Assembly: GCA_037043015.1 (NCBI GenBank)
Contig: CM073329.1
Coordinates: 13,718,648-13,782,647 of the forward strand
Source of the DNA: Bryum argenteum
Lineage: Eukaryota; Streptophyta; Bryopsida; Bryales; Bryaceae
Direction: 5' to 3'
DNA length: 64,000 nt
A program made the translations under genes and the position numbers. The notes beneath the pieces were generated by a model, which was given only the letters and a program-made list of their open reading frames with translations, had not been told where the DNA came from and did not search any database. Each line of letters starts with the position of its first letter. Position 1 is the first letter of the stretch. Positions 13,309 through 58,205 of the stretch are shown piece by piece.

Positions 13309-16300
13309 TTACGGGCTGTCAAAGTTACATGAATCCACCATTATGTCATGTACTAGTGGAAGGGGAAGTAAACCAATGGAATCTCGAAGTAGACAAAATC
13401 GATCTCCTAGCAGGGCCTTTGTAAAAATATCAGCAAGCTGCGCCACAGTTGAGATAAATCGAACGTCGATGGCGCCTACTCGTTGCTGCTTACGAATGAA
13501 ATGATACACAATGTCGATGTGCTTCGTTCGACGATGAAACTCTGGATTGTGTACAAGGCGGACCGCACTCTGATTGTCACAGAACAATGGTGTCGGATGA
13601 GTTTGCGGCGATACTAGATTCGCAAGTAAACGCCGAAGCCAGATGATGTCCTTTGCTGTGGAGCTAGCAGCGACATATTCCGCTTCAGTCGTGGATGTAG
13701 CCACACAAAGTTGCTTTCGGCTACTCCAAAGCACAGGGGTGCCACTTAACTGGAGCAACGTACCACTTCGAGGCTTGCGATCCGTGATATCACCAGCATA
13801 ATCCGCATCAGCAAAAGCTTGCAAAATTAGTGAAGAGTTGTTGCCATCGTAGCAAAGTGATAAGTTCAACGTACCAGCAACATATCGAAATATGCGACCA
13901 ACAGCGTGATAATGAGAGCGCTTTGGATTCGAAGTAAACTGAGCGACTGTACTGATAGCGTAGCTCAGATCCGGTCGACTAAGGGTCTGGGCAAACATGA
14001 GACTTCCTACAGCCAAATCGTACTGGAATGGAGGCTCTAAGGCTTCTTCAGCTCCGTGGTCCAACTTCCCATTTGGATCAGCAGGCGTGGTAAGAGGGGT
14101 ACATGCCTCAAACCCAAATTTCTCAAGCATATGTCGCAAATAAACAGCCTGGTGGATGTAGATTTTACTGCGCTCCTCGGCTTGGTCAATATGTAAGCCA
14201 ACGTATAGATCTCCTGATGAGCGGGTGATCTTGAACTGCTTTTCCATGTGTTGAAGTAGAGACTCCATCTTTGAAAGTGAGGAACAACACACGAGGCCGT
14301 CATCAACAAAAAGAGTTAAGATCAGTAGCGGTTCGGTTGCTGAAACATAAACGCATGGATCTGCCTCACTTGGAACAAGCTTGAACTCGATCAAAAACGC
14401 GTCAAACTTGTGGTTCCAGATACGCCCAGATTGCTTAAAGCCATACATGCTCTTAAGAATGAGGCAAACAAGCGTGCAACCATTCACACCTTGTACCTCG
14501 TACCCCTAAGGTTGTCGCATATATAAAATAGTGTCAATCTCTCCATGCAAATACGCCGCTTGCACATCAAATTGCATAATATGCATCCGACTTTGAGCAG
14601 CAAGGGCGAGAACAGTCCGTATTGACTCATATTTTACCACTGGACAAAAAGTCTCAGTGTAGTCAATGCCACGGGTTTGTGTGCAACCTTGAGCTACAAG
14701 GCGCGCCTTGTAACGAGCGACAAAACCATCTGAATTGGTCTTTACTCGATACACCCATTTGCAACCAACAGCACGACGATCATTGGGTAGCTCTACCAAC
14801 TTCCATGTCATATTTGCTACAAGTGAGTCATATTCAACATCCATAGCTTTCCTCCATTCGAGAGCTTCAGGACAAGATTGTGCCTCAGCAAAACTTACAG
14901 GATCATGTGGAATCAGTTTGCTGACAACTATGCCTGCAAACGTCGACGGAATGATGAAATCACGATAGCGTTGAGGAACACTACGTATTTGAGATACTCT
15001 TGACAGAAGAGGTGCAACAACTGGAGTGTCGTCATCTAAATTGACTTCCAGTGCATCGGTAGGCGGAGAGACAGATGCTCTATGCTCTGGTAGTGTTACT
15101 GGCGGCGGCTGATTTTCCGCTTCAACGGCGCTTTGCTCCACATGGGTGCTATATGGGTCTTCTAAAACAGTAGCCGCCCTCTCAAGATTACATCCACCTA
15201 TATTAGATGGTAACGCGTCCTCCCAGCAAGTGGTTGTATCATGCAGCTCCATTGATACGTTTGCGCTAATACTCGATAGTGACATGGACATGCCAGGAAA
15301 TGCATCCCTTGGAACCGCTCCTTCATCAAAAATGACATCTCTATTAATAAGGATTCTCTGCTTCAATGGGTCCCACAATTGGTATCCTTTAAAGTCACCA
15401 CTGTAACCAACAAATATAGTCTTGATGCTTTTGGGATCCAGTTTTCCACGGTTGATTTTAGGAATGTGTGCATAAGCAACACACCCAAAAACACGCAAAT
15501 GTTCAACAAATGGCTTCTTACTTGTCCACAGCTCATAAGCTGTCTTGTATCCACGTGCTCTTGATGCTACTCGATTTAGTACGTATGCGGCTGTTTGGAG
15601 CGCTTCACCCCAAAATTTGTAATCAAGTTTTTTTGAATGAAGCATTGCTCGCATGCTTTCAACCAAAGTGCGGTTCTCCCGCTCCGCTCCACCATTCTGC
15701 TCTGGAGTGTAAGGACATGTCAAATCATGAATGATACCTTCTGTTTTAACGTACAATTTGAATTCCTTGGTCAAAAACTCGCCACTACGATCAGTGCGCA
15801 ATTTCTGAATTCTATTCCCGGTCTCTTGCGCCGCGATTCTACATAAATTTTTGAAACAGTCAAATGCATCAGATTTATGTGGAACGCAATAAACAAAACG
15901 GTAGCCAGAGTGGTCATCTTTAAAAAGCACAAAATAACGGGCTCCACCAATTGATGCGTGATCCATGGGCCCGCATTTATCGGCATGGAAAAATAATCCA
16001 GGTTTGTTAGCCAACGGTGTACTCCGTTCCTTGGGAAAAGGACGACGCATATTCTTGCCAAGTGCACATCCTTCGCAAGGATTTGAAGGCAATGTATGAT
16101 TGGCAAGCTCCATTCCTTCCACAGTCTTATCAGAATGCATATGAATTAACATAGCATAGTTTACATGACCATAACGTTGGTGCCATATCTCCAATTGCTT
16201 CGCTCTTGGCACTACATCAGACGCAGAAGGTCCTTCACTACCTTCAATAGTGTAGCCGCAACTCGCAACAGGTACGACTCTGAGCTCCAGATGGTATAAC

Positions 16301-17662
16301 TTATTGGAACGTGTGCCGGTGAGTACAACTCTTCCTTCCGTGAGGTAACAAGAAGTTCGAGTGTATGTTGTGACATAGCCTTTGTCTGCTAATTGTCCAA
16401 CCGAAATCAAATTCTTGCGTAGATCAGGAACATACAATACTCTATGAAGAGTTCTTTTCTCCCATGCATCTCCTATGCGACACTCGACTTGGATCTGTCC
16501 AACTCCTCGAACCCAGAGTCTTCTATTATCAGCAATCATTACTGGCCAACATCCTTCTTCAACATTTTTGAGACAAGAAAACCATTCAAGTCTGTCAGTC
16601 ATGTGGTCTGTAGCACCGCCGTCAAGATACCATGTATCTTGACCCTCAGTGTGTCCAACAAACGCTAAGAAAGCTCTGTTGTGTTCATCACTTGTTACTA
16701 AGTGTGCTGCACTTTGTTCATCTCCAGACTTCTTCTCTCCTGACTGCTCTGTTTTGTTAGAGTTTGTATCTTTGTCTCGCTCCTGGCATTCTGAATCTCG
16801 CTCCCAGTGGCCTTTCTTCCCGCATCGGTTGCACCGAGTTTTCTTTTTTAGTTCAGCAATCTTGGCAGCTCGTTTCTTCTTCTCCTCTTGAGAAAAACTC
16901 TTAGCACTAGAACTTGGGCTGTGACTTGAGAAAAATGCTTTCTCCCCCTCATCGTCTTCCTTTTGTAAGCGATTACGTGACTCCTCTTTAAGCAAGCAAA
17001 GAGTGAGGGCATCGATGGTCTGTTCATACTTTGGGACACTGTCCCACGCAGATTGCATGTGCCTAAAGCGCGACGGCAAGGTACAAAGAATCTTGCAAAT
17101 GATGGCTTGTTCACTTACTGGTTCACGAAGATCAGTGAGTTGATTAGCCAAATGCTCTACGTTGCTAATGTGGTCAACCACATCAGTTTCTGGTTTCATC
17201 TTGAGTTCAAAAAAATTTGTGCTGTAGAAGTTGAATGTTCTTAGTGGCGTTTTGCTCGTGCACCGTGCAAAGTCGACGCCACATCTCGTTAGCTGTTTTG
17301 CAGACCATAAGTCTACGCATAAGTTTTGGATCAATGGAAGAGATCAAGATGGACTGGCAGGTCGCATCTCTGTCGTTCCAATCCTCGATATCCTCACTTG
17401 TTTCTCTCCGAAGGGTGCCGTCAACTATGCCGAATAGCTTACGTGCGCGAAAGAAAACACTCATCTGAAATTTCCATATACCAAAGTTACCGTCTGTGAG
17501 CTTTTCTATGTTTCCAAAATTTATCATCTCTTGACGACTAATGCTTACAGCATATGTTCGCTCTGGTATGCGTGCAGAACCATCTTCGTAATTCGACGTA
17601 CGCGCTATCTCAGGGCCTGTCAATGGAACTTGGTCCATTGAGGAAACTGGTCGACCCTCCAT
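13309..17662 (-). pseudogene. Copia gag-pol polyprotein, frameshifted and with a nonsense codon
   Basis: A single gag-pol frame of about 1450 codons. The likely ATG is at 17,662. Domains in order: gag with YAVSISRQEMINFGNIEKLT and MWRRLCTVHE; a zinc knuckle CNRCGKKGHWERDSEC whose last spacing is six residues instead of the usual four; protease with YLDGGATDHMT, where the usual DSG is DGG; the integrase zinc region WHQRYGHVN and CEGCALGK; integrase acidic residues in HADKCGPM, LRTDRSGEF and EQNGGAEREN; reverse transcriptase with KARLVAQGCTQ, FDVQAAYLHGE and LFVDDGL; RNase H with ADADYAGD and TEAEYVAASS, ending with QLADIFTKAL. Two lesions are seen: an extra base in a run of seven T (about 17,210-17,216), and an in-frame TAG at 14,506-14,508 after MRQP, where the family usually has Glu. 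As read, no full polyprotein is made. Confidence 0.93.
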
Positions 17663-30318: not shown

Positions 30319-30610
30319 ACCTTTATAGTACATAATTATCAAGTCGTTCCTTCCAAGTTGTTCTGGAGGATGATGTAATGACTCACGACGTCTACACCGC
30401 GCTTCAAATGGTTGTGATCGCTTTCCCCAGTTTTGCTCACCAGCCATCCCCGAATTTCACCACCCACATTTATTCAAAACGGTCGTCCAGAAAATGCGTG
30501 CCTCCCTCTATTGCATGGTCGATCACGGCGGTTCTCGGTACTTCATGTTTGCATATGCTTTCTAGTTGGATCATGGGCTGCCTATTTTTATAAGGCCATA
30601 GTATTTACAG

Positions 30611-31321
30611 GTCACGTATCCTGCGTACAAGAAAATACCACCCAGGTTCATGAAGTATTTTGTTATATTAGAGCTTGATGGCGGGCTCTGTGATATCAAG
30701 CACGACAATGGGTTTCTTCAGAACCAGCCCTTGGATTGTGTTCAACCATCCTTCTTTGAGGGGGCGGACTTCCGTCCCCAGACCCGGACAATCTTCAAAG
30801 ACTATGTCCTTAGGTGTCGCCCGGGAGTGCGGGAATTCCTCGAGTTTCTCACTAGCGTATGCCACGTTGGTATTTGGACTAGGATGCCGAGGAATATCAC
30901 GCAGGGTATGGTCAGGTTTCTTTTCCAGAGACTGACGCAACCAAGAGAAATCCTCTCTGTCGAAGATTGCACTCACATCATTGAAACCAGGCCGCAGTCC
31001 GAGTGTCGATGTCCGGTTAGAGAGTGTTGGTGGCGCCCATATCCATGTCCAGGTCACCCATGTACGATGCGGCTTAACCTCATGGCCACCGAGAGGACTT
31101 ACGTCTGGCATGTCGGGCACCCAAGAGATAGGCTGCACGTTAAGGTTGTTCACAAGATGGTGTGGGGCCAAACCAGATTCTGTAAGCCCGATATATGTCT
31201 AAATGCGTCCAACACCCTCCTCATAGACTCCAGCCCCAAATCGGCACTGCTCAATTCTCGATACAATGCAATATTCTCCATCGTTTACAAGGGCAATTCC
31301 AACGATCACGTGCTCTGCTAG
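30611..31321 (+). CDS. FCP1/NIF-like HAD phosphatase domain exon, catalytic residues altered
   Basis: FCP1-like proteins are HAD-superfamily phosphatases acting on Ser/Thr phosphoproteins. An exon opening after the acceptor atttacag at 30,610 reads in phase into YPAYKKIPPRFMKYFVILEL. Counting from the Met at 30,650: motif I FVILELDGGLCDI (residues 4-16), the conserved CRPGVREFLEFL (56-67) and VGIWTRMP (73-80), a Cys-rich insert (residues 107-138), and motif III NTLLIDSSPKSALLN (188-202). The usual DxDGT nucleophile Asp is Glu here, and the usual Asp-Asp of motif III is Asp-Ser, so catalysis is doubtful; relaxed motifs also occur in some plant homologues. The ORF ends at TAG 31,319-31,321, but the same frame stays open to 31,624 (SVAKYIFHIVKSGKSIPRFM), which could be the true tail. 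Confidence 0.72.
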   Translation, partial: VTYPAYKKIPPRFMKYFVILELDGGLCDIKHDNGFLQNQPLDCVQPSFFEGADFRPQTRTIFKDYVLRCRPGVREFLEFLTSVCHVGIWTRMPRNITQGMVRFLFQRLTQPREILSVEDCTHIIETRPQSECRCPVRECWWRPYPCPGHPCTMRLNLMATERTYVWHVGHPRDRLHVKVVHKMVWGQTRFCKPDICLNASNTLLIDSSPKSALLNSRYNAIFSIVYKGNSNDHVLC

Positions 31322-43023: not shown

Positions 43024-43058
43024 CACTATAAACACTCAATTAAGCAATTGTGCACTTG
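43024..43058. repeat. Left terminal inverted repeat
   Basis: 35 bp starting CACTATAAACACTC, perfectly complementary to 57,250-57,284. Followed by a subterminal pair, tgcacttgg and ccaagtgcg. Confidence 0.92.
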
Positions 43059-43239
43059 GCCAAGTGCGCTAATTGGCGCTCAATAACAATAAGATTTGGA
43101 GCAATTTTTTGTTTTTTTTTAACTAATAAAACAAAATTCCAATATTTTTTTTGCTATATTTTTGTAATAATTTCATTAAATATTGGTTTGTTGATGTCTA
43201 CGTAGGTGAATACTTTTCACTATTTCCTTGAAATTGTGC

Positions 43240-43242
<3 letters not shown>

Positions 43243-43270
<28 letters not shown>

Positions 43271-43271
43271 T
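43243..43271. repeat. (AT)n microsatellite
   Basis: Alternating A and T; a second tract lies at 43,457-43,482. Confidence 0.9.
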
Positions 43272-43457
43272 ACAATATTTCATTCTTATTCCATTTACAG
43301 AATGACATTGACCATATACTTACAAGAACCTAATCCTATAAATTTTGTTTCATGTAATGACTTTATAATGTCGTTCTACAAATACAATTTCTAAGAGATG
43401 TAATGATAAAACCCCAAATACAATGATAAAGTATAAGGTATAAAACTCTATATTTAT

Positions 43458-43488
<31 letters not shown>

Positions 43489-44063
43489 ATTCAATATCAC
43501 ATACTATAATAAAACATACCATTTCAAAAGCAAACATATCAATCACACTATACTAGTCACCTAAACATCATATATGCTAAGTTATGGTATGACTACAAAG
43601 TCTCCATCATATTATGGTGATGCGACTCCCGTAGCGTATTCTATGGCTGTATTGATCATTTCAGCCAAGACATCCTCTCGCACCGGAGTATCCGCAAGAC
43701 CGATTGATGTAGCATTCATATCTAAAGCTACCGGGGGTCGCCATGCCGCGTGTGCCTTACGCCATCTGCATCATAATAGAAGCCATCTCTATATGTCATC
43801 GGTGTAGTGAAGGTCCTCCTAAATTCAGCAACGTCCCCCGATTCACTATGTCTTGTAACAGATGGCAATATTGGTCCAATGCTTCCTCCAAGATCTTTCG
43901 TACTTCTTTGTGTCCCAAATCCAGATTTGTGATTGAGTAGGCACCAATGGTTGCCTACTTCTACTCACAACAACCGAGAAAAATACGAGAGAATCGTGAG
44001 CATATCCATCGATTCCGGCCATTGAGAAATAGATATGTTCATTCCCTCCACTTGGTGTCTCGA

Positions 44064-45635
44064 ATGAACGTTCACCGCATTTGAGTATCATCCGCCATCT
44101 CCATGGGTGTCTCCTCTACACAAACTTCCACATGCGGCGGTGACGTTGGAGTAACCACATCTCTCATAGGTGCTCCCTCCTCTTCACCTTCATCTTCGTC
44201 TTCGTCTTCATCTTCCGTCCATCTTCCTCCTCATCTTCTCCTTCTTCTTCGCTTCATTGCTTTCTTGCGTGCGTGGTGAGTGAACGATCGGTGTGGATTT
44301 GTCCGCCCCATATTCACGTGGCAATCTCTCATTGAACTGAGTGTAGAAATCCACATCATCGTCACCATCCCTCGATAATGGAATCGCATCTTCGGTAGCA
44401 TGCACATCACTAGGAGCACTATCTGTTCCACCTATGTTGTCAGACATCAACAACTGGCCGTGGAAATTGTTGGACAACTCATTGTACAAGAACGAAAGTC
44501 TCTCGTTACAATTGTCAATGACAATGATATCGGATCCCTGGAAATTCGAACGCAAGATAGTCGGAATCGCAGTTGACATGCTACATGCCACCAAACCCCA
44601 ACCTCGAGGCAAGTACGAATCCACAAGTCTTGATAACTCGGATGGAGATCTCTCGAGAGCATCAACAATAGAAAGCTCTTGTGCTTCACCACGGTTATCG
44701 TCAAATAAAAGAGGAAGTCGGCGGTGCCCAGTAACAAAGTTTGGCCCAGCAGATGCTCCAATTGGGTGTTGCAGACAAATAATGATATCACCTATTGGTT
44801 CAACTGCCTGCTGTAAGCGCCCTCCATTTGTAAAATTTAGAGGATGATTAACCGAGGTCTGACCAAATGCCCAACATCCACGTCGATGAGAGCAACCCTC
44901 CGGAAGCTTGAGCTTCGTAATCAATTCCTCGGTGGCGAACACGGCCGGTGGTAACAGGAAAATGACATTCCATCGTTCGACGGCTGTCATCCATAACGCC
45001 AGCTGTGCAAATACTCTAGTAAATTGTTCATCTTCCCAATGACCATTGCCATGTCTTCTACCGCCACGCCGACAATCAATAATCCACAAATACGGCTGTG
45101 TCAACTCTGCATACTCTGAACCGAATAATCCTCTTCTAGATCGAATCAAAAGTGGTTCCTCTCCATTGCTTTGGTCTGGCCTTTGAACGTGCAACTGCCA
45201 CTCCCAATTGGCCCTATTTGCAACTCCTCTACGTAGAGATGGTGCATTGTGGCCTTGCCCTCCTGCTGCAACAACTTCATAATGTACCTTGATGAAAGGA
45301 GGGATGAGGTCGCATATGTCTTTCAGCTTCGACACTTTCTCTCGCTGCGGTGTACTCCATTTGGTTCTTGTTTTGCTATCCAACAACTCGGCAAATTTTT
45401 CAAGTTGTTCCTTGCCTCCTGGTAAATACTTCCGTACAGATATACGAAAGAAATCTTCCATGGAATTTGGGAAAGATTCCTTGTTGTCTACCATCAACCA
45501 ACGGATGGTATTTATCACCGCTTCTCGTCTCATAATGCGCTCACATACACCAAAGAACAGCACGAGTCCTGGATTTCGCTCTTTGACGCCGTTGAAATAA
45601 AAAAGCTTGACGAGGTCTTCGTCCATCCTCGCCAA
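44064..45635 (-). pseudogene. Methyltransferase-like C-terminal half of the element's left gene
   Basis: A 475-codon frame (45,635-44,208) starts MARMDEDLVKLFYFNGVKER. Its order of segments resembles a circularly permuted N4/N6 DNA methyltransferase: first LWIIDCRRGG (182-191) where the catalytic DPPY loop is expected, then RWNVIFLLPPAVFATEEL, then SPSELSRLVDSYLPRGWGLV followed by ACSMSTAIPTILRSNFQGSD and IIVIDN where the SAM-binding DxFxGSGT and GIE-like strands are expected. Both key motifs are altered, so it is probably inactive. The tail is acidic and continues in shifted frames to about 44,064 (EDEDEDEDEGEEEG). This segment follows the ParB-like frame upstream after one frame change near 45,620. 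The fold call is inference from spacing and pattern. Confidence 0.5.
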
Positions 45636-47587
45636 CCGGCTTAGCTAAAATGGCTTTTGCAACCTCTAGATAGTACGAACTTGGAACTCTACCCAACGGC
45701 CTCAACCAATGTCCGGTCATCCGCTTCCGCCTTGGTCGTACATCTACATTTGGGTCTAGACTCTTCTTTAGTGCCAACGCCTTCCACCTCTTCTCCTCAT
45801 CCTTGCTGTAAAACAAAAAGCCGTTCTCGTAGTCCTTGGTAACTTGAAGGACAACTTCAAAGCATTCATCGTTGGGATTCCAGGCATGCTTAGTTAGGTC
45901 TTCCATGTTCTTCCCCAAGCTCGACGTCGTAATCTTGTTGTCACCTCCGTAGGGCAGTTTCCGCACGGCACTTGCTGCGCTCACCAATGCAATAGCCCTG
46001 CGTTCATCATCTGAACGAACTGAGTTATCAGGCCTACCATACAGATTCCATATCTGTCGGAGCTTCACCAAATCCTCACTCATGGTGGATAGTTGTTTTC
46101 TTTGCCACTCCGCATTGTTGACTTGTACCGACTTGTTAATGTAAAGTCGTGGATTATCATACACAACAAAGGTAGCTTCCCGTTGCTCAAACGTCTTCTG
46201 AAACTCGGAATGAGTGATCTTGCCGCTCATCCACTGCTCCTTCGCATACTTGCAAGCAGCTACAACGTGTTGCCCATCCACAGGCTCCCAAATGATATGG
46301 TCTTGAAGCCAAGATAACTGAGAGCCCATAGTACCGTCTACAGAAGCATCTCCATTGCTTAAAAACATCCGTTCAAACTCTTGAGCTGCTCCATTAACCG
46401 GGAAATCGACTCCTTCACGTTCAACCATACCAGTGTCGGTAACGATATCCACAAGGTACTTGATAGGACGAAGTACCAATTTACTCACTCCAATCCTATT
46501 TTGAGGATCTCGTAAGAAGGTATATATCTCTGATACCCTCTTCTGCGACAAAATTCGATGGTTTGTCTCCGGATTCTCCACTTCGATAATGCGGTCAATG
46601 TGTGCCTTGAATACAATGTCGCCCCATATTGAACCTCTCGCAACTTCTTCTTTTGTAGGCACGGGCGCTTTCAGAATCTTAGAAGCTGGAACAGATATTG
46701 AGATGTCTGCCTCTTCCTCCGATTCCCCTGATGGGTGGTCGGAAATGTCGTACAACTCGTCATCCACGGCCGACAAAGTCACAGGAACATCCGCTGTAGA
46801 TGTTGATGATCTACGATGGGTAATGATTGGTCCAGCTATCGATCCACGGCCTCTGCCATGCATTGGCGATGCTCTGTCCTGTGATGTCGAGGCCCTGCCA
46901 CGCGATGGTCGTCGAACAAAACCTGAAGCTATGTTGCCTTCGTCATGTCGTGGCCGCTTAGATGGACGACCAATTGTTGATGTACGAACATTCGATGCTC
47001 GCAATGTAGTGGATGGCCGCCAATCCAATTGTGTCGGCCTTGCTAACGCACGATAAATAGGTTCGGTCTCCTCTGGATCAGCCGGTAAACTTGTATGTTC
47101 AACTCTTGCACGTTCTGGCTCCGACCGCTGTAATGCCTCATACGAGATATGAGCACGCATAAATCTTCTAGCTCGTGCCACATCCTCTTCAGATAACGCT
47201 AAACATGCCGACACATGCTCATGTCTAGCAGTACGCACCGCAAAGATCTGTGTTGAGCCAAAACGCCCGCAACGAGGTTATGTTATTCAATCGCCCTGGA
47301 TTTTGAAGAAGAAGATCAGTAGGAATAGGTGCGAGAAGCAACTTTTTGAAAGGGAAGTCTTTGTCGGCCTCTGACCAACCCCCGGTACGCAAATTGCATA
47401 GATCATATCGCCTGGTCGGAGATTAATTGCCCGAAGTTCGGCGAAGGGCTTCCCCAATGCCGATGTGCGCTTCCCGATTTGAAATGGATGTTACGTGAGC
47501 CATAATATTGGCCTTGATTCGCGTCCACTGCGATCCACCATCCGCATCGCTCCCGCACCTTGTCGATTGGAAGCGTTGGTGCCATGA
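45541..47587 (-). pseudogene. ParB-like N-terminal half of the element's left gene
   Basis: The gene probably starts at ATG 47,587 (MAPTLPIDKVRERCGWWIAV). Its first ~350 nt need several frame changes (FAELRAINLRPGDMIYAICV, then KKLLLAPIPTDLLLQNPGRL) before the 565-codon frame 47,238-45,541. In that frame: an Arg-rich disordered part with RPSRGRAS and HGRGRGS (residues 109-132), an acidic stretch (165-180), then a ParB/sulfiredoxin-like domain: IDRIIEVENPETNHRILSQK (214-233), SKLVLRPIKYLVDI, and WEPVDGQHVVAACKYA (317-332), matching the ParB pattern of an R-rich entry and a DGxHR.xAA helix. ParB-like domains bind or nick DNA and in phages are often joined to methyltransferases, the arrangement seen here. 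The frame runs off near 45,620 into the methyltransferase-like half. Confidence 0.55.
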
Positions 47588-48705
47588 TGTCTCCAACAAG
47601 AAACCCGACTTGAATCACACAATACATATAGAATTGTAAATACGAGTATTAAAAAAAAACCTCTAGCTCTTTTGTGCTTTCTTAAAATTCATATCGTAAA
47701 ATGTTCTTTGTATAAAATATCTATGCCGGTTGAAATGTCGGGTTTCATAAAATTATGAACATCATATCAGAGTTGATAACATGGTCACCAATGTTTTGCA
47801 AAATGTTAATGGTTACTAGAAGACAATTTATACGATCACTTATTTTATCCTAAACCATATAAATTTTATTCAAATTCAGAAAACATTGAATATTCTACGA
47901 CTAATACCTTTCATTTTAGAGTAATTTCAATATATAAACTTTATCACGCTCAAATACGATGCCATACATGGCACTTTTTTAGCTCTTTCAAGCATGTACT
48001 AGGAGATGCAATATTGTAATAAATCATAAGTATTACTTGTCATTACATTGGGCTTATAACAAATACGAATTCTTGTAACTATCATACATCTTGTCAAGAT
48101 ATGGTATCTTACATGATGTCTTCGATAAGTAAGTGCTTGGGAAGAAAGCCTAACCGTTAAGTAAGCAAGCTTGATGTGGTTCAAAATTCTTATGAGAGCA
48201 ATATCCATCCTACCGAAATAAAGCAAAAAGTATCAATTTTATCAATGTGAATTAGATTATTGGAAACTCATAAAATATTTAGGGAATCTGAAAAATACTA
48301 TTTTATAGAGCCTTCAAATGATCATGTTTAAATTCTAATACATTATGAACGAGAAGGATAAATTGACACTCAAATACTTCCTCAAAAATCAATATCACAC
48401 ACAAATGTGAATGTTAAATTTAGGAGTTTATAATAGTATTTATAAAGCCATGCCTTGACAAGATAATCATCATATAAAAAAATTGAAACTCCACCACCCC
48501 CTCCGTTGAACTCTTCTATAGAGACAAACTACGAACCCTAAAAACTAGGTGTAAAAGTATCGCAAAGAAGCTATAGATGCTACTCGGTATGATCTGAGAT
48601 ATCAAGACATAGTAGTGCTAACCTCAACAAGGTAGAGGGTGGAGTAATATAGAGCATGGTTTAATTTTTCAGGATTGAAGTGATTGTTGCCCATTCTTGC
48701 TTTGT
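47588..48705. other. Left part of the element's central spacer
   Basis: AT-rich, no supported gene. It lies upstream of the left gene and could hold its promoter; no specific box is convincing. Confidence 0.4.
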
Positions 48706-48974
48706 TTAACCCCTAAATTTCCTTGTTGCAAAACGGTGTAAGTCACAAAATTTGACCTTCCTTTAGATTAAGCTCAAAAAATCTCAATCTAAGCAATATT
48801 CAAAAAATTCAACCGTAAGATCTCAAATTTCACTTGACATTCTTCTCACATACCAAATTTGAACCGTTCATTCTTCCTCATTTGTGAGATTATAATGATC
48901 AAAGTTGGCTGATTTTTGCTCCTGCGGAAACCTCCAAAACCCGTTTCGGGTTTTAAGAAAAGTCAGGGGTTAAG
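48706..48974. repeat. MITE-like insertion in the element, TTAACCCCTAAA ends
   Basis: The left end reads ttaacccctaaa and the right end aggggttaag, an inverted pair. The right half (from about 48,879) matches 35,541-35,645. Probably a non-autonomous element nested in the larger one. Confidence 0.5.
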
Positions 48975-50040
48975 AAATCTTGCAAGCCTTGGAAAAATTT
49001 TCCCTCATTAAAGTCGCCATATTTGAGAGATTCCTCCCAGATAGCTTCAACCATGAGAATCAGGGCATCAAGCGGGACAGTGCTACAAACTGCACTTAAA
49101 CTTATCAACTTATTATGGTTAACTTATAATGGTCTGCTCTTATTGCTACTTACGTGCAAAGTCTCACATTTCTCTTACGTAGGAATTGACCGAGGAGTGG
49201 AACACAAACTTACCGATCTTTTTGCGGACTAGTTGGGATGCGACTTGCAACTCATGAGTGAAATGCCCCAAACACAAGTAATTGAGCTTGCGCAATGCTG
49301 CTAGAAGAAAACAAGTCACCGCAACAAGAGTATGAGAAAGAAGACTATATTTGAAAACTCACCATAATTGGTTCTCTACATTAATTTTTAACAGTGATTT
49401 TGAGAAAGGAAGACACGGAAGGACCACTATAACGCCTACTCATTATCAACTCATAAACATATGTAGGCCACGACGATAATTAAAATGATACCACACCATT
49501 GTGTTTGAAAAATGGGGGTTCAGTGCTGAAGACTAAAGCTCTATTCAAAGCTACTGAAATTGGAATGTTCTGTTTCGTCCCGTGCACAAGAGCATCCTGC
49601 AATAATTTATCTCCGACTATATCTCTCTTCGACTATTTACTGAAATACTTTATTCATGCCGCAAGTGCACATGCAATCTTGAAATTTTCTGATCAACTGA
49701 TCAACTAAATCACAAACAAAGAACGTAATGGCAAGATTATAACTCCGTTATCCAATAACCTGAACTTCCTTGTGACCTAAAGCATGAACTGAAGAAACAT
49801 CAGGTTACTTGATTTGTCTAGAAGACATAATGAGATAAACATTACAGTATATTTTCTTTAGAAAAAGAGATATTGAAATTTCATCACATCATCAAAAGTT
49901 TCGTCGAAATATGGCCACCAACGCCACGCATGAAATAATACAGAGATTTTGACATTTTGTATTTCGATATCATGCACCCACAGCGTACTTGCTAACTTGT
50001 TCAATTCAAGGCTCGTAATTCGTCGTTCAGACATCTTGTA
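48975..50040. other. Central spacer of the element, no gene
   Basis: Short frames only (49,023; 49,499) without motifs. Nothing recognisable was seen. Confidence 0.4.
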
Positions 50041-50098
50041 ACTATCTTTTCTTTTTCTTCTTTCTTTCTATCTTTCTATCTTTCTTTCTTTCTTTCTT

Positions 50099-50126
<28 letters not shown>
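50041..50126. repeat. CTTT/CTAT microsatellite ending in a T26 run
   Basis: Degenerate ctttctttctat units followed by an uninterrupted T run at 50,101-50,126. It marks the left border of the GC-rich island. Confidence 0.9.
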
Positions 50127-50134
<8 letters not shown>

Positions 50135-51115
50135 CGCTGCCTTGGGGGGGGGTGCGTACGCACGGGGTGTAAGGAGGGAGGCGGAGGGAAAGATTAGGGG
50201 AAGAGGGGATGTGATTAGGGTTTAGAAAGAAAGGCAACTCACGTGCAAATCTCTCAGACCGGGACGCGCTAAGGGACGCTTATTACCGAGGACTCAGATC
50301 GGCACTCGTATCGGCACTCGTATCCGAACTTGTAGTGGAACACCGAGTAACTCTGGCGGGACAAAGCTCATGCCCCGCGACACGAAAATCTCGGACGAAA
50401 GATCACAATATTGTCTTTGGAGACTCCCGATTCGAACGCTAGAGTGTGAGGGGTGAATCCCCCAATTGTTGTCGGAGCCATTGTTCTCTTTCCTCGGGCG
50501 TTTCCGAGCTCGGCAATGTATGCGGCTTGTTCGCGCAGACCTTTGAGCTCGCTCCTCAATGACTTTGGGGCTCTGACGCTGGCTTTGTAGGCCGCTTCTT
50601 TGGTGCGGACTGTGTGCTCGATCCTCGGGCGACTCTGCGGCTCTCACTTTGGCTACGTATGCCCCTTCTTCATTGCGGCCGTTGCGCCTTGGCCTCTGGA
50701 GTTTGAGTTTTCGTGACCGAGCACGATTGGCCGATTCTTCTGCCGTTGTTGTGATGACTCTGTCTTGACGACTGCTTTGCACGTACGCCGGCTCTGAAGT
50801 CACCGAGACTTGAAACCTTGTGAATGTCTACGTTCAAAAGCCGCAAAGCAATGTATCTCGCAACGTTACGACCGGGACTCATGGCCGGACTTTGAGCGAC
50901 TCGTGGCGGGACACCGAGGAACGCGCCGCTGCGAGATCTCGTACCCCGTGCGTCGCACGCACCCCCCTGAGCGGCGCCGCTCAAGAAATGCCAAGTCTTC
51001 GGGAAGAGGCACATTGATTGAAAAGGTGCTAATCTCCTCAGAACCCGAACGAACGAACGTGCACAAGAACGAAGTTTGTGTCGACCACCGAGCTACAAGT
51101 CGGGAATGGTTTTAG
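50127..51115 (-). other. GC-rich coding-like island, possible coiled-coil exon
   Basis: This kilobase is much richer in G and C than its surroundings and begins with a G run. On the minus strand three frames are open in turn. One encodes EEGAYVAKVRAAESPEDRAH; another encodes EAAYKASVRAPKSLRSELKG followed by LREQAAYIAELGNARGKR and an end FTPHTLAFESGVSKDNIVIF. The two segments look like one repeated helical motif (AAYxAxVRAxxS), read in different frames, which suggests a coding exon broken by an indel. No family is recognised. It could also be captured host DNA. Confidence 0.35.
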
Positions 51116-53566
51116 GCATGGTTGTGAGCATCAAGCTACAAGTCAACACCTAGAAAAAGGACTCTAATCTTTGATTATCTTCACTTTGTCCGACTCACTT
51201 AAGCAATACTAGAATCAAGAACACGCGGTGATATTCCGCCTCTCTGTTGTTAATTCTCGATAATTCTCTATTACTCTTACAAAAAAATTGTATAGCCTTG
51301 TCGATTAAGGTCGGATAGAAAAAATAGTAATGGCTAGGAATACACATATATGGCGGCAAAGAACTTGGGAAAATAGTGAATTGAAACTCCGATGTCTGTC
51401 GCATGAACGTCCTAGTTGATATGGATGCCGCTACAAAGAGCACAATAAAAACCTTAAGAAGTATACTCCATAACTACAAAGCTTTAAAATACTATTTGGA
51501 ATTTGCCCAAAAGCGCCCATACTATGGTTTATCTTTTTTTATCTACCCAAAATATATAAGATCGCAGGGAACTTCAAAATTCACCAAACTACGGAAATTT
51601 AACTTTTTTCCAAGTTTTGTTTTTGGTACTTGGACATAAGGTTTTAAGGCATGATCTCACCGTTTTGGATCTTTCATCCAATTATTATTCACATGCCATT
51701 TTTATCATAAAAGAAGGGCCTTTGAAGTTGAATTACTTATGTTTGACCAAGGTCTTAGGCTTGTACTAGGCCAACCATGATAAAATTTGAATTGCCTGCA
51801 TGAAGTTAAGGGAAGCAATATAGTTAGCAACACAGAAGTGAACATTCCAACATTTGATCCTAAACAACGTAAACTCTACATGGTGAATGTACCCATAAAA
51901 ACGATGTAAGACCATCACTAGCACAAACAGATTAAGCTCAATCATGGCCACTTAGAACCACTTGCAGCTCCATATCAGTGTTACTAAAAGAAAAACAAAA
52001 ATGTCGCGTGAACAGATCAAATCTGCCAATTGAAATTAAGAGTAAAGGAAAGTAGAACGTAATCAAATTAGCATACTTTAAGTGGTGAAAACATCAGTTT
52101 AAAAACTTGGTGTTGTTGATGGTCACAAATGCTTGTCTGATTGTGAAACCACCATATCCAGCATGTGTTGTCTCATGAGACAGGCAATTGAATGTCATTC
52201 AAAGTACGCTAGACTCTCACAAGTTTTGTCTTTAAAGTGTTCATAGTCGTGTCAACAAGTCACATGTTACATTAGCCTGATAGTTAACGAGCATGTTGTT
52301 CGGAGCTTTTATCTCTTTTTTCCCCCAATTTCCTAGATTTTAGGTTGTTTTCATCATGTGTTACATATTGACACCAATGTGTTTCTTATGATTGTATAGA
52401 TTTTGAAAGAAAGAGAAGACCAAATATTTTGGCAACGAAGATTGATTGGTGATATTGTCATACTACACAGTGTTGAATCCCGATACCACGCCTCTAGATA
52501 CTTATACTTGAAATTGAGGTCAGAATTACCTTCTACTCCCAATCTAATGGCTTTTAGGACGTATCTTATTTACCGTGGATTTCATCGAATCGCTTAAAAT
52601 TATAATTTTCTTCAATGAGCTCTAATTGACAATCTTTAAAATAATTAATCTTCATACTTGGAAGTATAAGTATATATCTATCATTGGATAGTTTATTGGA
52701 TTAATGATGCTTTTAAATTCAAAAACTATAAATAGTTGAAGTATGATGAACAATACCAGACCAAGTGAATCCGGTATTTCCCGTATGAGGACGAGGCTTT
52801 AAGTAAACCAAATAGGGTTATAGGAGGATGGTAGCCGCTTACAAATGAAACATAGAGATCTTAATGTTTTGTGGTTTTGGTTTTTTCTATTCCAAAATGT
52901 AATACAAACTTCCTTTTTTTCCATTTAGATTTTCTTTGTAGAACATATTAGATTCACAAAAAAATAAAACATGATTTGACAACGTTTAAACCTAAAATGT
53001 TTAAACCTCCAAAGTTTGCACAAATTTTTCAATATGCTAAAAAAAACACATAATTATAGTATATTTTTTTACTACAAGATGTGGTGTCGAACTTCCATTT
53101 GGTCGTTTAGGGGTTTGGGAGAACCAATAGTATAGGTTTTGACATATAATTATAAAACCTTTGTACGAAATTCAACATCCGGTAGTGGGATAGACGTGAT
53201 TTTGTTATACTCTAATAGTACGTAGAAATAAGTACATTCATATGTTTCTAATGTCCATACATTGTGACAATTATATAAATCTAATGGATCTTCAAATTTA
53301 ATTTTCTATCTTAGAAGTTCAAATAAAAAAATAAATCACTAGTGCTCACTACACGTGACCAGGTAACATAAAATCTAATATATGTACAATAAAACTCGAA
53401 TTGTAGCAGAAGGTGAACACTTGGTAGTTTGTCCAAAATGAAGCTTGTTACATAATTTATATACTACCACGTTGACCGATTCTTACCCTTTTATTACTAT
53501 TTTCTGAATATCAGGTTGATAGTCAAGCGATAGCAACTATGATGGAAAACAATACAATAGAAACTC
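51116..53566. other. Right part of the element's central spacer
   Basis: AT-rich, no supported gene. It precedes the DUF7869-type ORF. A possible splice acceptor (tgaatatcag, near 53,515) suggests an upstream untranslated or short coding exon. Confidence 0.4.
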
Positions 53567-55915
53567 ATGTCCCAATCGGAGACATCCCGAGGAGGTGATA
53601 TCTTGTTCAATAGTTCAATAGGTTCACGATTACTGCGGGCGGCTCGAGCGAGACAACTACATGATGGATTAGATGAGATATGTATATCTCAACAAAATAG
53701 TAGGGTCGAATTGCTTTCTAGTACGGGAGCGGTAGTGGGCATGGCGCTAATGGACAATGCATTCAAAAGTGGCATGGAATTGAACAGAATGAGATTGTTT
53801 CCTCCGAGGTGGCGAAGACGTGTCACTCAAGTAGATGATAAATTTGGACGGGGAGATGTAGTTGGAGAACGATTAGGATTGTCTAGGGGACTAACGATTC
53901 GTTGGGACCGCTCTTTGGTACGTGTAGTGGCTTTGGATTCCAATATTCTACACGCACGAGGTGAAGAGGGATCTCAAATGCCGCATGTACCGATGATGAC
54001 TCCGATATTTGATTTCCATGAGGAGTTTCACACACCAAGCTCCAATGAGACATCACGAAGAAGTAGTCAAGCTTCAAATCCCGTACATGAAAATTCACCA
54101 TTTTCCCAGCCTCCTTCTAACAACATCCGAGATCTACCACATGTAGATGGGTTGGCATTTGTAAGACAAACGCGCCGACGTTATTCTATGCAGAATCGGA
54201 CAAGGCGAGTCGCAAGGGAAAGAAGACCGGCCGATGGTGCAAAAGCAAAAGTTACATTGATAAGCGTGCAAGATGCAATAGCAAAAGGTGGATGCAAGAG
54301 AAATTGTTTAACAGATATTCCGGCAAGGTACATCTTGGACGTGCGGTATAATGCATGGGGGTCTAAGTATTCAATCCGGAGTACATGGGTGAGGCAGATG
54401 TTGGTTTCATTCTATACACAAACTGATGGAAATCGTAGAGATAAGTTTGTGACAAAGTTGGACGGCAAAGAGGTTTGCAATGCATGCTACGCTGTAGCGG
54501 TCGGATATTCACAACGGCGTTTCAAGGACTTGAAAAAAGATTGTTTAATATATGGTAGGGTGACAGCTGTTCACGGAAATACCCTTTCAGATCCAGTTAG
54601 AGAGAGTACTAGAATGACTGCCGCCGAGGCATGCTTTAAGTGCTTCGTGGATGAAGCCGGTTGTCCTCAACCCCACCAATCCATTCGACGCAAGAGTGAC
54701 AACGAAGTCGTGCCGCTTATTCTTCTCCCCATGAACACAGTAAAATCTGATGTATTCAATTACGTGAACGAGGAGGTGAAGAGAATTTGCAATGGCGAAA
54801 CCATATCCATGAGCTCATTTCGGAGGATGTGGCGCCTAAGGTATCCTCATGTTCAAGTACCCCCATTCTCTAGGTTCTCAAAATGTTATCATTGTTGGGA
54901 GTACAAATGTGCCATGGAAGGGACAACCAATGCCGATGCCAAGATAAGGATTAAAGAGGTGTTCATGTTACATTTGCTCAATCAAATGGAGGAACGTAGA
55001 CATTATTGGATATTCAAGAGGTCTTGTTATATCAACCCTGAAATGTACATGTGTATCATAGTAGATGGCATGGATCAGAATACAACCATGGTACCCCGAA
55101 TACGTCAGACCGTGAAGAATATCGAGAACCGGTTCGTGAAGACCCATCTATGCGGGGCGTTGGTGCATGGGATTGGATTGTACTGTGATGTGTGGTTCGG
55201 AGCTCACCACAAGCATGATAGCAACCAAGTCGTGAGCACATTATTACATGTGATAGGGGACGTATTACGGAGGAAGGGATTCTTGCCACCAACATTACGC
55301 ATTCAAGCGGACAACTGCACACGCGAGAACAAAAATATTTATATGTTCGCAATGTGTGCAACTTTGGTTGGATTGGGATTTTTTCAGGAAGTGGAACTAA
55401 CCTTTCTCATCGTGGGTCATACGCACGAAGATATCGATCAACGGTTTAGTTGTATCTCAAACACCTTGAAGAGGTCAGACATGAACTCTTTAAAGGAAAT
55501 GTTTACTCTCATTGAACGAGGAACGTCCCCCACCGAGGCATTTGTAAGCGTACGACTATTAGAGAATGTATGGGATTGGAAGAAGTTCGTAACTCCGCAC
55601 CTATTGACGGGATCGGATTCATTGATTGGCATTACATTTCCACACCACATGAGATTCTATTCTAGCAATCGCGAGGGTGCTTGTAAGGTCAGGGTCCAAC
55701 ATAAGCACTATTGCAAGGATGCTTGGGGACCGGAGAGAGGGGATCAAACTTTGAGATCCATCCCAAATAGGGTCGAACGACCGGATTTTGCGACTGTATA
55801 TGCAGCGGATGAGCGGGAGCTCAAGGCGTTAGACGATTTTATTGCGTACAAGGATAGGTGTATTCAAAGATTGCAACACGTGGAAGTCAACCGTGATGCA
55901 AAACATGAGGCATGA
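53567..55915 (+). CDS. DUF7869-type protein, candidate transposase
   Basis: A 782-codon frame. It matches the DUF7869 protein group found in scattered eukaryotes and usually left without a function. Visible features: a disordered, Arg-rich N-terminus (to about 230); Cys motifs CKRNCLTDI (~242) and VCNACYAVAVGYSQRRF (~302), likely zinc-binding; CYHCWEYKC (~442); then the DUF7869 core with IVDGMDQNT (~498), HLCGALVHGIGLYCDVWF, IQADNCTRENKN (~578) and VGHTHEDIDQRF (~614). The three acidic motifs have the order and spacing of an RNase H-like DDE/D core, and the ORF sits in an element with CACTA ends, so transposase is the best inference. The start is the first Met of the frame. The frame ends in three close stops (55,913; 55,919; 55,931), while homologous sequence resumes in the next ORF. 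Confidence 0.7.
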   Translation: MSQSETSRGGDILFNSSIGSRLLRAARARQLHDGLDEICISQQNSRVELLSSTGAVVGMALMDNAFKSGMELNRMRLFPPRWRRRVTQVDDKFGRGDVVGERLGLSRGLTIRWDRSLVRVVALDSNILHARGEEGSQMPHVPMMTPIFDFHEEFHTPSSNETSRRSSQASNPVHENSPFSQPPSNNIRDLPHVDGLAFVRQTRRRYSMQNRTRRVARERRPADGAKAKVTLISVQDAIAKGGCKRNCLTDIPARYILDVRYNAWGSKYSIRSTWVRQMLVSFYTQTDGNRRDKFVTKLDGKEVCNACYAVAVGYSQRRFKDLKKDCLIYGRVTAVHGNTLSDPVRESTRMTAAEACFKCFVDEAGCPQPHQSIRRKSDNEVVPLILLPMNTVKSDVFNYVNEEVKRICNGETISMSSFRRMWRLRYPHVQVPPFSRFSKCYHCWEYKCAMEGTTNADAKIRIKEVFMLHLLNQMEERRHYWIFKRSCYINPEMYMCIIVDGMDQNTTMVPRIRQTVKNIENRFVKTHLCGALVHGIGLYCDVWFGAHHKHDSNQVVSTLLHVIGDVLRRKGFLPPTLRIQADNCTRENKNIYMFAMCATLVGLGFFQEVELTFLIVGHTHEDIDQRFSCISNTLKRSDMNSLKEMFTLIERGTSPTEAFVSVRLLENVWDWKKFVTPHLLTGSDSLIGITFPHHMRFYSSNREGACKVRVQHKHYCKDAWGPERGDQTLRSIPNRVERPDFATVYAADERELKALDDFIAYKDRCIQRLQHVEVNRDAKHEA

Positions 55916-55933
55916 GGTTGAAACAATATTTAG

Positions 55934-56689
55934 CGAGTTTCAAGAAAGGACCGCAACGCCGATCACGAGTCATCACCGTTTTGGCCATCCTATGAGTCCA
56001 ACGCCCAACCTTCAGGGTGCTTCTCTTCGATACCGAGAGAGAATACTATTGCTGAAACTCGCGAGATAACCGTTGTTGATCAGATTGTGGGCATGCTCCC
56101 GAGTGCAGAGGCTCGTGGATACTTTGGACCACGAAGGGAGAGACCATCAAATCAAGGAGTGCATACTGCACGACGAACTAGTCGACATTGCGTCTACGAA
56201 GAAATCTCAGTACGAGACCAAGAAGGAGGTAGCAACGATCCGTTTCCAACATTGAATCCCGAAACAGACATTAATACTGATCAATTTGTTGCACTGAGTG
56301 TTGTTCGAGATGAGGTAGAAGCAGGCATACCCTTTTACCTAGGAAAGGTGATTGAAGAGGGGAAAAACTCATGGAGGTTAAAGATTAAAGTATGTTGGTA
56401 TTGCCCCATTATGAGAGAAGGGGTCGTTGAAGAAACGGGGTCCAACAGACAACGCTATGTAAATTGCATGGAGTCGTTGTGGGAGCCATCTGGTGAGAGG
56501 CACAGTTGGGTACCGAAGGAGGCGTGTATCTTTTCATGGTTTGACGAACAACCCGTATCGGAGAATGTCGTTCAACCGTCGGAGAAGCGCATTGTACACG
56601 GAGTGCAGGTAGAGAAGAGAGTTCGTATTCCTCAATCCACAAAGGCACACACATTCGGAATATATAGCCATGCAAACGGAAGCTATTGA
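55934..56689 (+). pseudogene. C-terminal domain of the DUF7869-type protein, separated by frameshift
   Basis: The same frame as the 782-codon ORF reopens at 55,934 and runs to 56,689. The recognisable part is ALSVVRDEVEAGIPFYLGKV, then KIKVCWYCPIM, RYVNCMESLWEPSGE and WVPKEACIFSWFD, which resembles the small beta-rich C-terminal domain seen after DUF7869 (PF.IGKV...V.WY.P). Between 55,880 and 55,990 a third frame reads MRHEVETIFSEFQERT, so two opposite 1-nt shifts, or a small intron, are more likely than two separate genes. Confidence 0.55.
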
Positions 56690-56887
56690 CGATTTAACGC
56701 TTTGCGACCTTAAATACCAAGGAGTAGGTTATTATCATAGTACATTGACCGTGGTTTGTATGGTAATTGATATGAAGTGTTCATGTATGAACAAGTTAAA
56801 TTTATCCGGTGAAGGTATAGTGGTAGACGTAGAGAGAAATGATTAAAAGGATTGGGAAAATACCAATATTTATATCTACAAATATAC

Positions 56888-57014
56888 TTACAAATGTATC
56901 ATGTTTATTATTGTCCGGGTACTATGTATGCTTACAAATGTATCATGTTTATTATTTTCCGGGTACTATGTATGCTTACAAATGTATCATGTTTATTATT
57001 TTCCGTGTATTATG
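56888..57014. repeat. 44-bp tandem repeat, 2.9 copies
   Basis: Units ttacaaatgtatcatgttta... start at 56,888, 56,932 and 56,976. They lie between the right gene and the right terminus. Confidence 0.9.
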
Positions 57015-57208
57015 TCTCTTGTTGCAAGTAGGGCTTCACCATATTATTAAGTGACAAATATTACAAATGATTCTTGAGGACATTGGGTAAAACTATTTAT
57101 TATCTTACATGTATCATTGTACAAAAACTATATGGTTTTTAAATTTTAACTAGTGGAATTTTTTACCAAAGAACCCATTCTCCAAACCATATATTTGGGT
57201 TTTAAAGT

Positions 57209-57258
57209 GCACATTGAAGACTACTTACAGAAGTGCACTTTTATACATACAAGTGCAC
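57209..57258. repeat. Subterminal AAGTGCAC motifs
   Basis: Three copies of AAGTGCAC at about 57,209, 57,232 and 57,251. Such short subterminal repeats bind the regulatory protein in En/Spm-type elements. Confidence 0.65.
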
Positions 57259-57284
57259 AATTGCTTAATTGAGTGTTTATAGTG
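57250..57284. repeat. Right terminal inverted repeat
   Basis: 35 bp ending gagtgtttatagtg, perfectly complementary to the left terminus at 43,024-43,058. Confidence 0.92.
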
Positions 57285-57679
57285 ACGTGTGACATTTAGC
57301 GTCTGTAACACTAATTAACATCTCTTGTGCATCTTGTGCCTGCATAGATATTTAATGGTTCATATGTCAACAAGGAGACGCAATCCATACATTTGACTTC
57401 ACATGCAAAATGTTTAGGAAAGCTGAGGCACTTCTACTTCAGAAGTACCCTCCTGAAAAAAAATTTACAGATTTATTCTCGCATTCAAACAATTCCGTGA
57501 GTGTCAAATTGTATCGTGCACGATTCCGATCGAACCATATGTGGTAATTTGTACACCACACGCGATAATTTGTACCTTGCACGCCTCAAATTTGAACCGT
57601 ATTATGCCTCCCTAATCGTCGCATTGTACACATCTCAAATCACATGTCTCAAATACATTGTACACGTGCGGAACCAAAT
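57285..57679. other. No recognisable gene
   Basis: Right flank of the large element. Short phrases here (tttgaaccgta, acacgtc) foreshadow the tandem array that follows. Confidence 0.4.
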
Positions 57680-58205
57680 CTTGCACGTCTCGAAATTTGA
57701 ACCACGTGTCTATCTAAATGCATGGTCCATGTCTTTTAGCAACCGTATAATTTAGTCGTGCTCAAGTTGAACACAATCATTTAATCGATGCATTTACGTC
57801 TCAAATTTGAACCGTGTGTTTCTCTAAATGCATGGTCCATGTCTTTTAGCAACCGTAAATCTAGTCGTGCACGCCACAAAACGTATTGCGTAAACAATCA
57901 CATTGTACCTAGCCGCTTCGATAGAACCCTCACGTGTAAATCTTTAACCTTCTTAATTGCATGTTGCATCAAATATTGATTCATCAAGTTGAATACAATC
58001 ATTTACGTCTTGAATTTTTTTGAACCATGTGTGTCTCTAAATGCATGGTCCATGTCTTTTAGCAACCGTAAATCTAGAGGTGCACTCCTCGAAACATACA
58101 GCGCATACAATCACATTGTACCTAACCGCTTTTATAGAACCCTCACGTGCAACTCTTTAACCTTCTTAATTGCATGTCACATCAAATATTGATTCATCAA
58201 GTCAC
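57680..58205. repeat. 213-bp tandem repeat, about 2.5 copies
   Basis: The phrase catggtccatgtcttttagc occurs at 57,721, 57,831 and 58,044. The last two full units are 213 bp apart; the first is shortened to 110 bp. Short parallel ORFs over the units are chance frames. Confidence 0.88.

Follow-up and report, generated by a model that had tools for sequence, protein, structure and literature searches.

Plant CACTA/EnSpm transposons are recognized by CACTA ends (5'-CACTR), a target-site duplication (TSD) of 2-3 bp and a Transposase_21 protein (TnpD), whereas Sola1 transposons, as Bao et al. reportedly described them in 2009, have a 4-bp TSD. SrosS, a Sola1 element of the choanoflagellate Salpingoeca rosetta, measures 3.3 kb and has 32-bp inverted repeats and a 4-bp TSD; according to the portion of the report devoted to it, its authors identified no functional domain in its ORF (PMC6875170). 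Sola1-1_Ec32, from the brown alga Ectocarpus, is a giant Sola1 of 21.5 kb that encodes a transposase and, on the opposite strand, a protein of 1104 aa. The passages describing it predict that this protein has ParB-like and N4/N6 DNA methyltransferase domains and suggest that the transposon marks its own DNA (PMC12477816). The same passages cite transposon-encoded ParB-methyltransferase proteins from green and red algae (refs 50 and 51 therein) and name the red algal giant transposons EnSpm. For mosses, the table of one review includes an entry "Physcomitrella Sola1" (PMC9033089). Sola occupies one row of a table in PMC6890710 and goes unmentioned in the main text of PMC7466625, and a literature search combining ParB, transposable elements and moss returned nothing on plant transposons, as judged by title.

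The window, the whole 64,000-nucleotide stretch of Bryum argenteum DNA analyzed here, contains one copy of what is probably a family of cut-and-paste DNA transposons that carry a divergent pair of genes, one for a DUF7869 transposase and one for a partner protein kept with it (Table 1); its type is most likely Sola1. The minus-strand block on the left and the plus-strand block on the right that the earlier note had described are these two genes. In the window copy, a damaged representative of this family, both genes are broken; other places in the genome hold long open frames of each gene.

Table 1. Coordinates of the transposon copy and its features within the window.
Feature	Coordinates	Strand	Remarks
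Whole transposon copy, AACACTC...GAGTGTT	43031..57277	.	14,247 bp; bounds from comparison of 18 end pairs
CAC, left flank of palindromic target CAC-TATA-GTG	43024..43026	+	host DNA, misread as CACTA end
TSD TATA, left copy	43027..43030	+	window pair is one of 16 exact TSD pairs among 18
Left terminal inverted repeat (TIR)	43031..43058	+	28 bp; perfect match to right end
Left gene	44208..47648	-	one protein of ~1,100 aa in window; three ORFs: 47403-47648, 45541-47277, 44208-45644
Region between divergent genes, presumed promoter region	47650..53500	.	~6 kb; 96% common with copies L069 and L070 to ~52.7 kb
Transposase gene, main ORF, DUF7869 core	53561..55915	+	784 aa; PF25273, E 5.1e-51
Transposase gene, C-terminal part	55934..56689	+	same frame as main ORF; stop between them in window copy
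AAGTGCAC/GTGCACTT subterminal motif cluster	57205..57258	+	starts 57205, 57231/57233, 57251
Right TIR	57250..57277	-	28 bp; perfect match to left end
TSD TATA, right copy	57278..57281	+	from 4-bp TSD comparison of end pairs
GTG, right flank of palindromic target	57282..57284	+	host DNA

The earlier note read this copy as CACTA-ended, with perfect inverted repeats of 35 bp. Such repeats are indeed present (43024-43058 and 57250-57284), with two matches in the window at ≤3 mismatches against none in 100 shuffles. When the copies are aligned by their ends, however, the common sequence runs from AACA inwards, and the seven outer bases on each side (CACTATA/TATAGTG in the window) vary from copy to copy and are host DNA. 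The terminus given by this alignment is AACACTCAATTAAGCAATTGTGCACTTG, a true TIR of 28 bp. Adjoining it is a 4-bp direct repeat, exact in 16 of the 18 end pairs compared and off by one base in the other two; it reads TATA in the window and ATAC, TTAT, AATA, AAGA, ATGA, AATT and others elsewhere. In 10,000 shuffles of the partners, exact pairs averaged 1.24 and never exceeded 7. Other TSD lengths and offsets matched in at most three of the 18 pairs; at the same place as the 4-bp duplication, a length of 3 bp matched in one pair and a length of 2 bp in three. All 36 ends start with AACA at the flank (as AACACT, AACACA, AACACG or AACATG). The 18 pairs consist of seven from matches to the window ends and 11 of 14 extra pairs picked among 100 of the 140 places with the TIR core, those at C3:3132889, C4:10064212 and C4:21480339 being left out of the comparison. 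One of the two mismatched duplications belongs to the element at C5:21304877-21317815, both genes of which keep long open frames.

The insertion target is a palindrome, CAY-WWWW-RTG. Outside the TSD, C is found at position -7 in 23 of 42 distinct ends, A at -6 in 28 and Y at -5 in 37 (binomial, each p<1e-6), and each TSD position is A or T in 36-38 of the 42; not all of these ends are independent, as both ends of one element share a TSD. The count took 42 of 47 distinct end flanks, namely those next to AACACT, AACAAC or AACACA, and left out five (three next to AACACG and two next to other sequence). Because the TATA duplication of the window is itself palindromic and lies within CAC-TATA-GTG, the flanks lengthen the inverted repeat by 7 bp per side, and the apparent CACTA end is target DNA. 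When target and TSD are both palindromic, the inverted repeat appears longer than it is, a general trap for CACTA calls made from a single copy. A 3-bp TSD outside CACTA was also considered and ruled out, the flanks (TAA and ACG) being different.

That the element should be a CACTA/EnSpm transposon without tnp2 that carries other genes is scarcely credible. Repeats beginning with CACTA and subterminal motifs would suit such an element in the window copy, but CACTATA is not common to the other copies compared, which have AACA ends and a 4-bp TSD. Nor was a Transposase_21 match found at E≤1 in the seven element ORFs scanned; only DUF7869 was found there, in agreement with the earlier note, which had seen a DUF7869-type protein in place of tnp2. 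Elsewhere in the genome 150 Transposase_21 matches were scored, the nearest of those listed on C9 lying, by eye, ~2 Mb off. The element is thereby set apart from the CACTA-type transposases of its own genome, as befits the distinct lineage that the earlier note had proposed. It resembles plant CACTA/EnSpm elements (En/Spm, with TnpA and TnpD) in having two proteins and subterminal motifs, but none of CACTA ends, a 2-3-bp TSD and Transposase_21 is found in the window element.

The subterminal motifs seen earlier stand: AAGTGCAC/GTGCACTT starts at six points in the element, two of the occurrences overlapping, against 0.34 expected from base composition. Most cluster at the right end; at the left end the only start is 43050, inside the TIR, and a single interior start lies at 49663. 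A 44-bp unit is present in three tandem copies (window 56883-57014), beyond the transposase gene and before the right end. In the intergenic region, a GC-rich stretch beside a long T run was noticed by eye at 50100-51100, inside the part shared with the copies L069 and L070, and could derive from an old insertion that had a poly(A) tail.

The further copies that the earlier note envisaged are numerous. Stretches of 117 bp at the left and 120 bp at the right of the element each have at least 40 scored matches in the 258.8-Mb genome, which contains 70 forward and 70 reverse occurrences of the 22-base TIR core (≤1 mismatch; a backwards control gave 0 and 0). A variant of the core that differs by one base, ATGCACTTG, makes up 33 of the forward and 33 of the reverse occurrences. 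Among the matches listed, 19 end pairs of this variant are just 3.3-4.6 kb apart, too short for both genes, and so presumably represent shortened relatives moved in trans, as judged by end spacing alone. Over its left ~9.7 kb, the window copy is 96% identical to two other copies (L069 and L070), which indicates that these copies are fairly young.

The two genes travel together. Of the 56 window-like DUF7869 places listed, 37 have the left protein's middle piece in divergent orientation within 30 kb, whereas 1,000 random placements, for which a size of C7 was assumed, gave a mean of 0.235 and a maximum of 3. When the C-terminal piece of the left protein is added, divergent pairing is found at 47 of the 56, which agrees with the earlier view of one transposon unit with two gene blocks. 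None of the pairs at these 56 places shows another gene orientation within 30 kb, and at nine places the left partner was not found. The DUF7869 places are 56 of 67 rows, the rest being taken as fragments, with the best 57 of 1,698 candidates scored; for the left gene, 71 of 89 rows were used for the middle piece (fragments dropped) and all 96 rows for the C-terminal piece. Divergent pairing persists where the transposase is ~55% and the left protein ~40% identical to those of the window. This recurrence, together with the long open frames of both genes kept at some places, argues against the idea that an unrelated element picked up both blocks as passengers dispensable for its movement. We regard that idea as very improbable, even though the window copy is broken in both genes and copies are nevertheless many.

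Two further observations concern family members on C8. The element at C8:12996895-13019578 measures 22.7 kb; between its two genes lies a frame of 1161 aa (L071) that appears by eye to be a Copia-type polyprotein, i.e., a nested insertion. Two right ends at C8:130062 and C8:35273 (L050 and L051), ~95 kb apart and in opposite orientation, share the same flank over the 25 bases compared, which points to a segmental duplication or an inversion close to the end of that contig.

The right gene of the two-gene transposon that we favor encodes the DUF7869 protein, which scores 173.4 bits against PF25273 (curated cut-off 26). The window copy has a frame lesion near the start, detected by eye, and a stop at 55913-55915, while in five other copies (L010, L011, L012, L014 and L017) the frame is open for 1,065-1,125 aa without a stop. 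An alignment of six sequences from this one genome (41-96% identity to the first) contains the invariant blocks VDGMDQN, RIQADNC.REN and GHTHEDIDQRF, and the acidic residues D531/D534, D613 and E652/D653/D655 (L010 numbering) are invariant in all six. Acidic residues so spaced are what a DDE/D transposase needs, and they may correspond to the DDD catalytic triad of Sola1 transposases. Given these three invariant acidic blocks, DUF7869 is most likely the transposase core, and the protein most likely the transposase of the element. Searches of PDB sequences at E≤10 and of phages returned no match to it.

The transposase is under purifying selection. Its dN/dS is 0.155 for L010/L017, both with open frames, 0.206 for L010/L014, 0.124 for the window and L017, and 0.094 for L010/L021 at a dS of 2.07. 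For the close pair of the window and L010 it is 0.458 at a dS of 0.053, as the decay of one of the two would lead one to expect. A likely function is thus offered for DUF7869, a domain of unknown function with at least 151 matches in this genome and not found by name in the literature searched. Some of the matches cover profile positions ~53-192, many of them on C1; these may be other DUF7869 lineages belonging to other transposons.

The left gene encodes a protein of ~1,100-1,400 aa across copies. That the left gene is one long frame is seen from three further sites, near C5:21306-21308 kb, C6:4522-4525 kb and C2:13796-13799 kb, where either large piece of the window gene lands in an open frame of identical length (1402, 1405 and 1411 aa); the 81-aa piece joins this frame in L069. 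The middle piece is 53% identical over 404 aa to L073. In the comparison with L073, dN/dS is 0.125, but dS is saturated at 3.3 and the ratio is therefore no measure of selection. The protein carries a VDGQH motif, which we take to resemble ParB-type proteins.

The "ParB/methyltransferase-like" character that the earlier note gave to this protein remains unproved. The likeness to the Ectocarpus Sola1, as far as its published description goes, makes it a good lead, but there is no profile support, and the pieces read lack the catalytic motif. The window left ORFs have no Pfam match at E≤1, and the left-gene pieces of L069 and L070 have none at E≤10. The ParB profile PF02195 finds one place in the genome, sub-threshold (E 1.49) and away from any left-gene place, and alignment of phage N15 ParB with the left-protein profile gave a probability of 0.2% (hhalign). 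Neither large window piece contains the methyltransferase motif (D/N/S)PP(Y/F/W). At the presumed spot of motif IV, the three sequences read there (window, L070 and L097) have LWIIDCRRGG; L097 is the 1402-aa open frame at C5, and its C-terminal region is 46% identical to that of the window. Since IDCRRGG is kept in an open frame, it does not reflect the decay of one copy, and the region is either a non-methyltransferase domain or a pseudo-enzyme. A 6-kb margin around the 71 left-gene places takes in none of the 32 genome places with a PF01555 methyltransferase match. Away from left-gene places, C4:20498341 and C7:9878472 have PF01555 matches at or just over the cut-off, possibly in other genes that encode a methyltransferase motif.

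It is consequently quite unlikely that the left protein works as a ParB-type DNA-binding enzyme with N6/N4 methyltransferase activity that marks the element's own DNA, as has been proposed for the Ectocarpus protein. Its position, strand and similar size, as far as that gene has been described in the passages concerned, and its VDGQH motif would fit such an enzyme; the absence of (D/N/S)PP(Y/F/W), the IDCRRGG that the window shares with L070 and the diverged open-frame copy, and the profile results for PF01555, PF02195 and N15 ParB all speak against it. In this lineage, then, the sequence argues against methylation, as opposed to the self-marking suggested in the relevant part of PMC12477816.

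The middle piece of the left protein has no match to PDB sequences at E≤10, and the single match of the C-terminal piece (E 1.1) was judged to be chance. Four phage records matched the middle piece at E 3-7, with the gene annotated under H1 on the other strand, and three plasmid records matched the C-terminal piece at E 6-9; neither set was retained. The C-terminal piece matched no phage. Scans of IMG/VR and of GTDB genome contigs, with two short peptide patterns per scan, revealed no prokaryotic or viral relative of either protein. PHROGs gave one short match of unknown function (E 0.1-0.19), NCBIfam gave none, and no Rfam family reached its gathering threshold in the window.

Binding of the element's ends is more likely than methylation as the role of the left protein, and an end-binding partner of the transposase is its simplest and most likely function. 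The GTGCAC-type motifs in the TIR and at the right end are candidate sites for such binding, and by analogy with En/Spm the protein may play a TnpA-like part. In the corresponding mechanism, the DUF7869 transposase would cut at the AACA ends and insert the element into palindromic CAY-WWWW-RTG sites, where staggered target cuts would give rise to the 4-bp duplication; the left protein would bind the GTGCAC-type terminal and subterminal sites and most likely would not methylate DNA. A more elaborate scheme is put forward tentatively, as we think it rather less likely to be right than wrong. In it, DUF7869 would be the transposase domain of a two-protein, Sola1-like lineage of plants, and the second protein a pseudo-enzyme, with IDCRRGG replacing the catalytic motif in its methyltransferase-like half, that serves as a sequence-specific, end-binding co-transposase. 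The partner would have evolved independently of the CACTA TnpA, and transposase and partner would have been repeatedly reassorted between lineages.

Set beside the published descriptions, in TSD length and gene arrangement, the element fits Sola1 best, and we call it Sola1-like. Its 4-bp TSD and its opposite-strand accessory gene agree with published elements. It shares with SrosS the length of the TSD and inverted repeats of comparable size (32 bp in SrosS, 28 bp here); it differs in its length (14.2 kb against 3.3 kb) and in its second gene, of which the portion of PMC6875170 dealing with SrosS makes no mention. Likened by description, Sola1-1_Ec32 has the same layout, that of a giant DNA transposon with a transposase and an opposite-strand gene of ~1,100 aa. 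It is longer (21.5 kb against 14.2 kb) and comes from a brown alga rather than a plant, and its accessory protein is predicted in the relevant passages to be a methyltransferase, whereas the left protein here has no recognized methyltransferase motif. The transposon-borne ParB-methyltransferase proteins of green and red algae, likewise compared through the descriptions cited in PMC12477816, are similar in that an accessory gene is claimed to have prokaryote-like domains.

A less probable, though by no means negligible, reading is that a 4-bp TSD and a DUF7869 transposase define a transposon superfamily of their own that is not homologous to Sola1. DUF7869 is not named in the literature searched, the protein lacks a PDB sequence match at E≤10, and the likeness to Sola1 is one of description. 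The agreement of both the TSD length and the opposite-strand accessory gene with Sola1, as the latter is described in the sources cited, counts against such a superfamily and for a Sola1-type element. With its many copies, the family provides a plant system in which the role of the accessory genes of giant Sola1 elements can be tested.

The transposase and the left gene appear to have been reassorted between lineages. Among the 37 listed pairs are 16 (the window pair included) whose transposase shares 90% or more identity with that of the window, and their left proteins fall apart into six at 79-100% identity, eight at 46-51% and two, with several stops, at 60 and 68%. At C2:13786222, for example, the transposase is 96% and the left protein 51% identical to the window's. 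Each identity was taken from one stretch per place and is lowered by frame lesions. Over the 37 pairs, the identities of the two proteins correlate (Spearman 0.62), as common descent demands, so any exchange would overlie descent. Recombination or gene conversion between elements, in which one half is replaced, is the likely cause.

Several other features were observed in the window. Just to the right of the element (57500-58200) are repeated frame pieces of FEPCVSLNAWSMSFSNRK and similar sequence, apparently a local tandem duplication. On the minus strand, 13309-17343 is the coding region of a Copia-type LTR retrotransposon (gag, integrase and reverse transcriptase by Pfam), with a stop between two frames. 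In the genome at large, LOB-domain genes, which are not known outside land plants and their nearest algal relatives, gave 22 matches; ten of these make up five close pairs, each probably exons of a single gene. Ten contigs of 7-44 Mb, together with C7, suggest a set of eleven chromosomes. On the plus strand of the window, an ORF at 30602-31321 has an NLI-interacting-factor-like phosphatase domain (PF03031, E 1.3e-9) and is likely a host gene.
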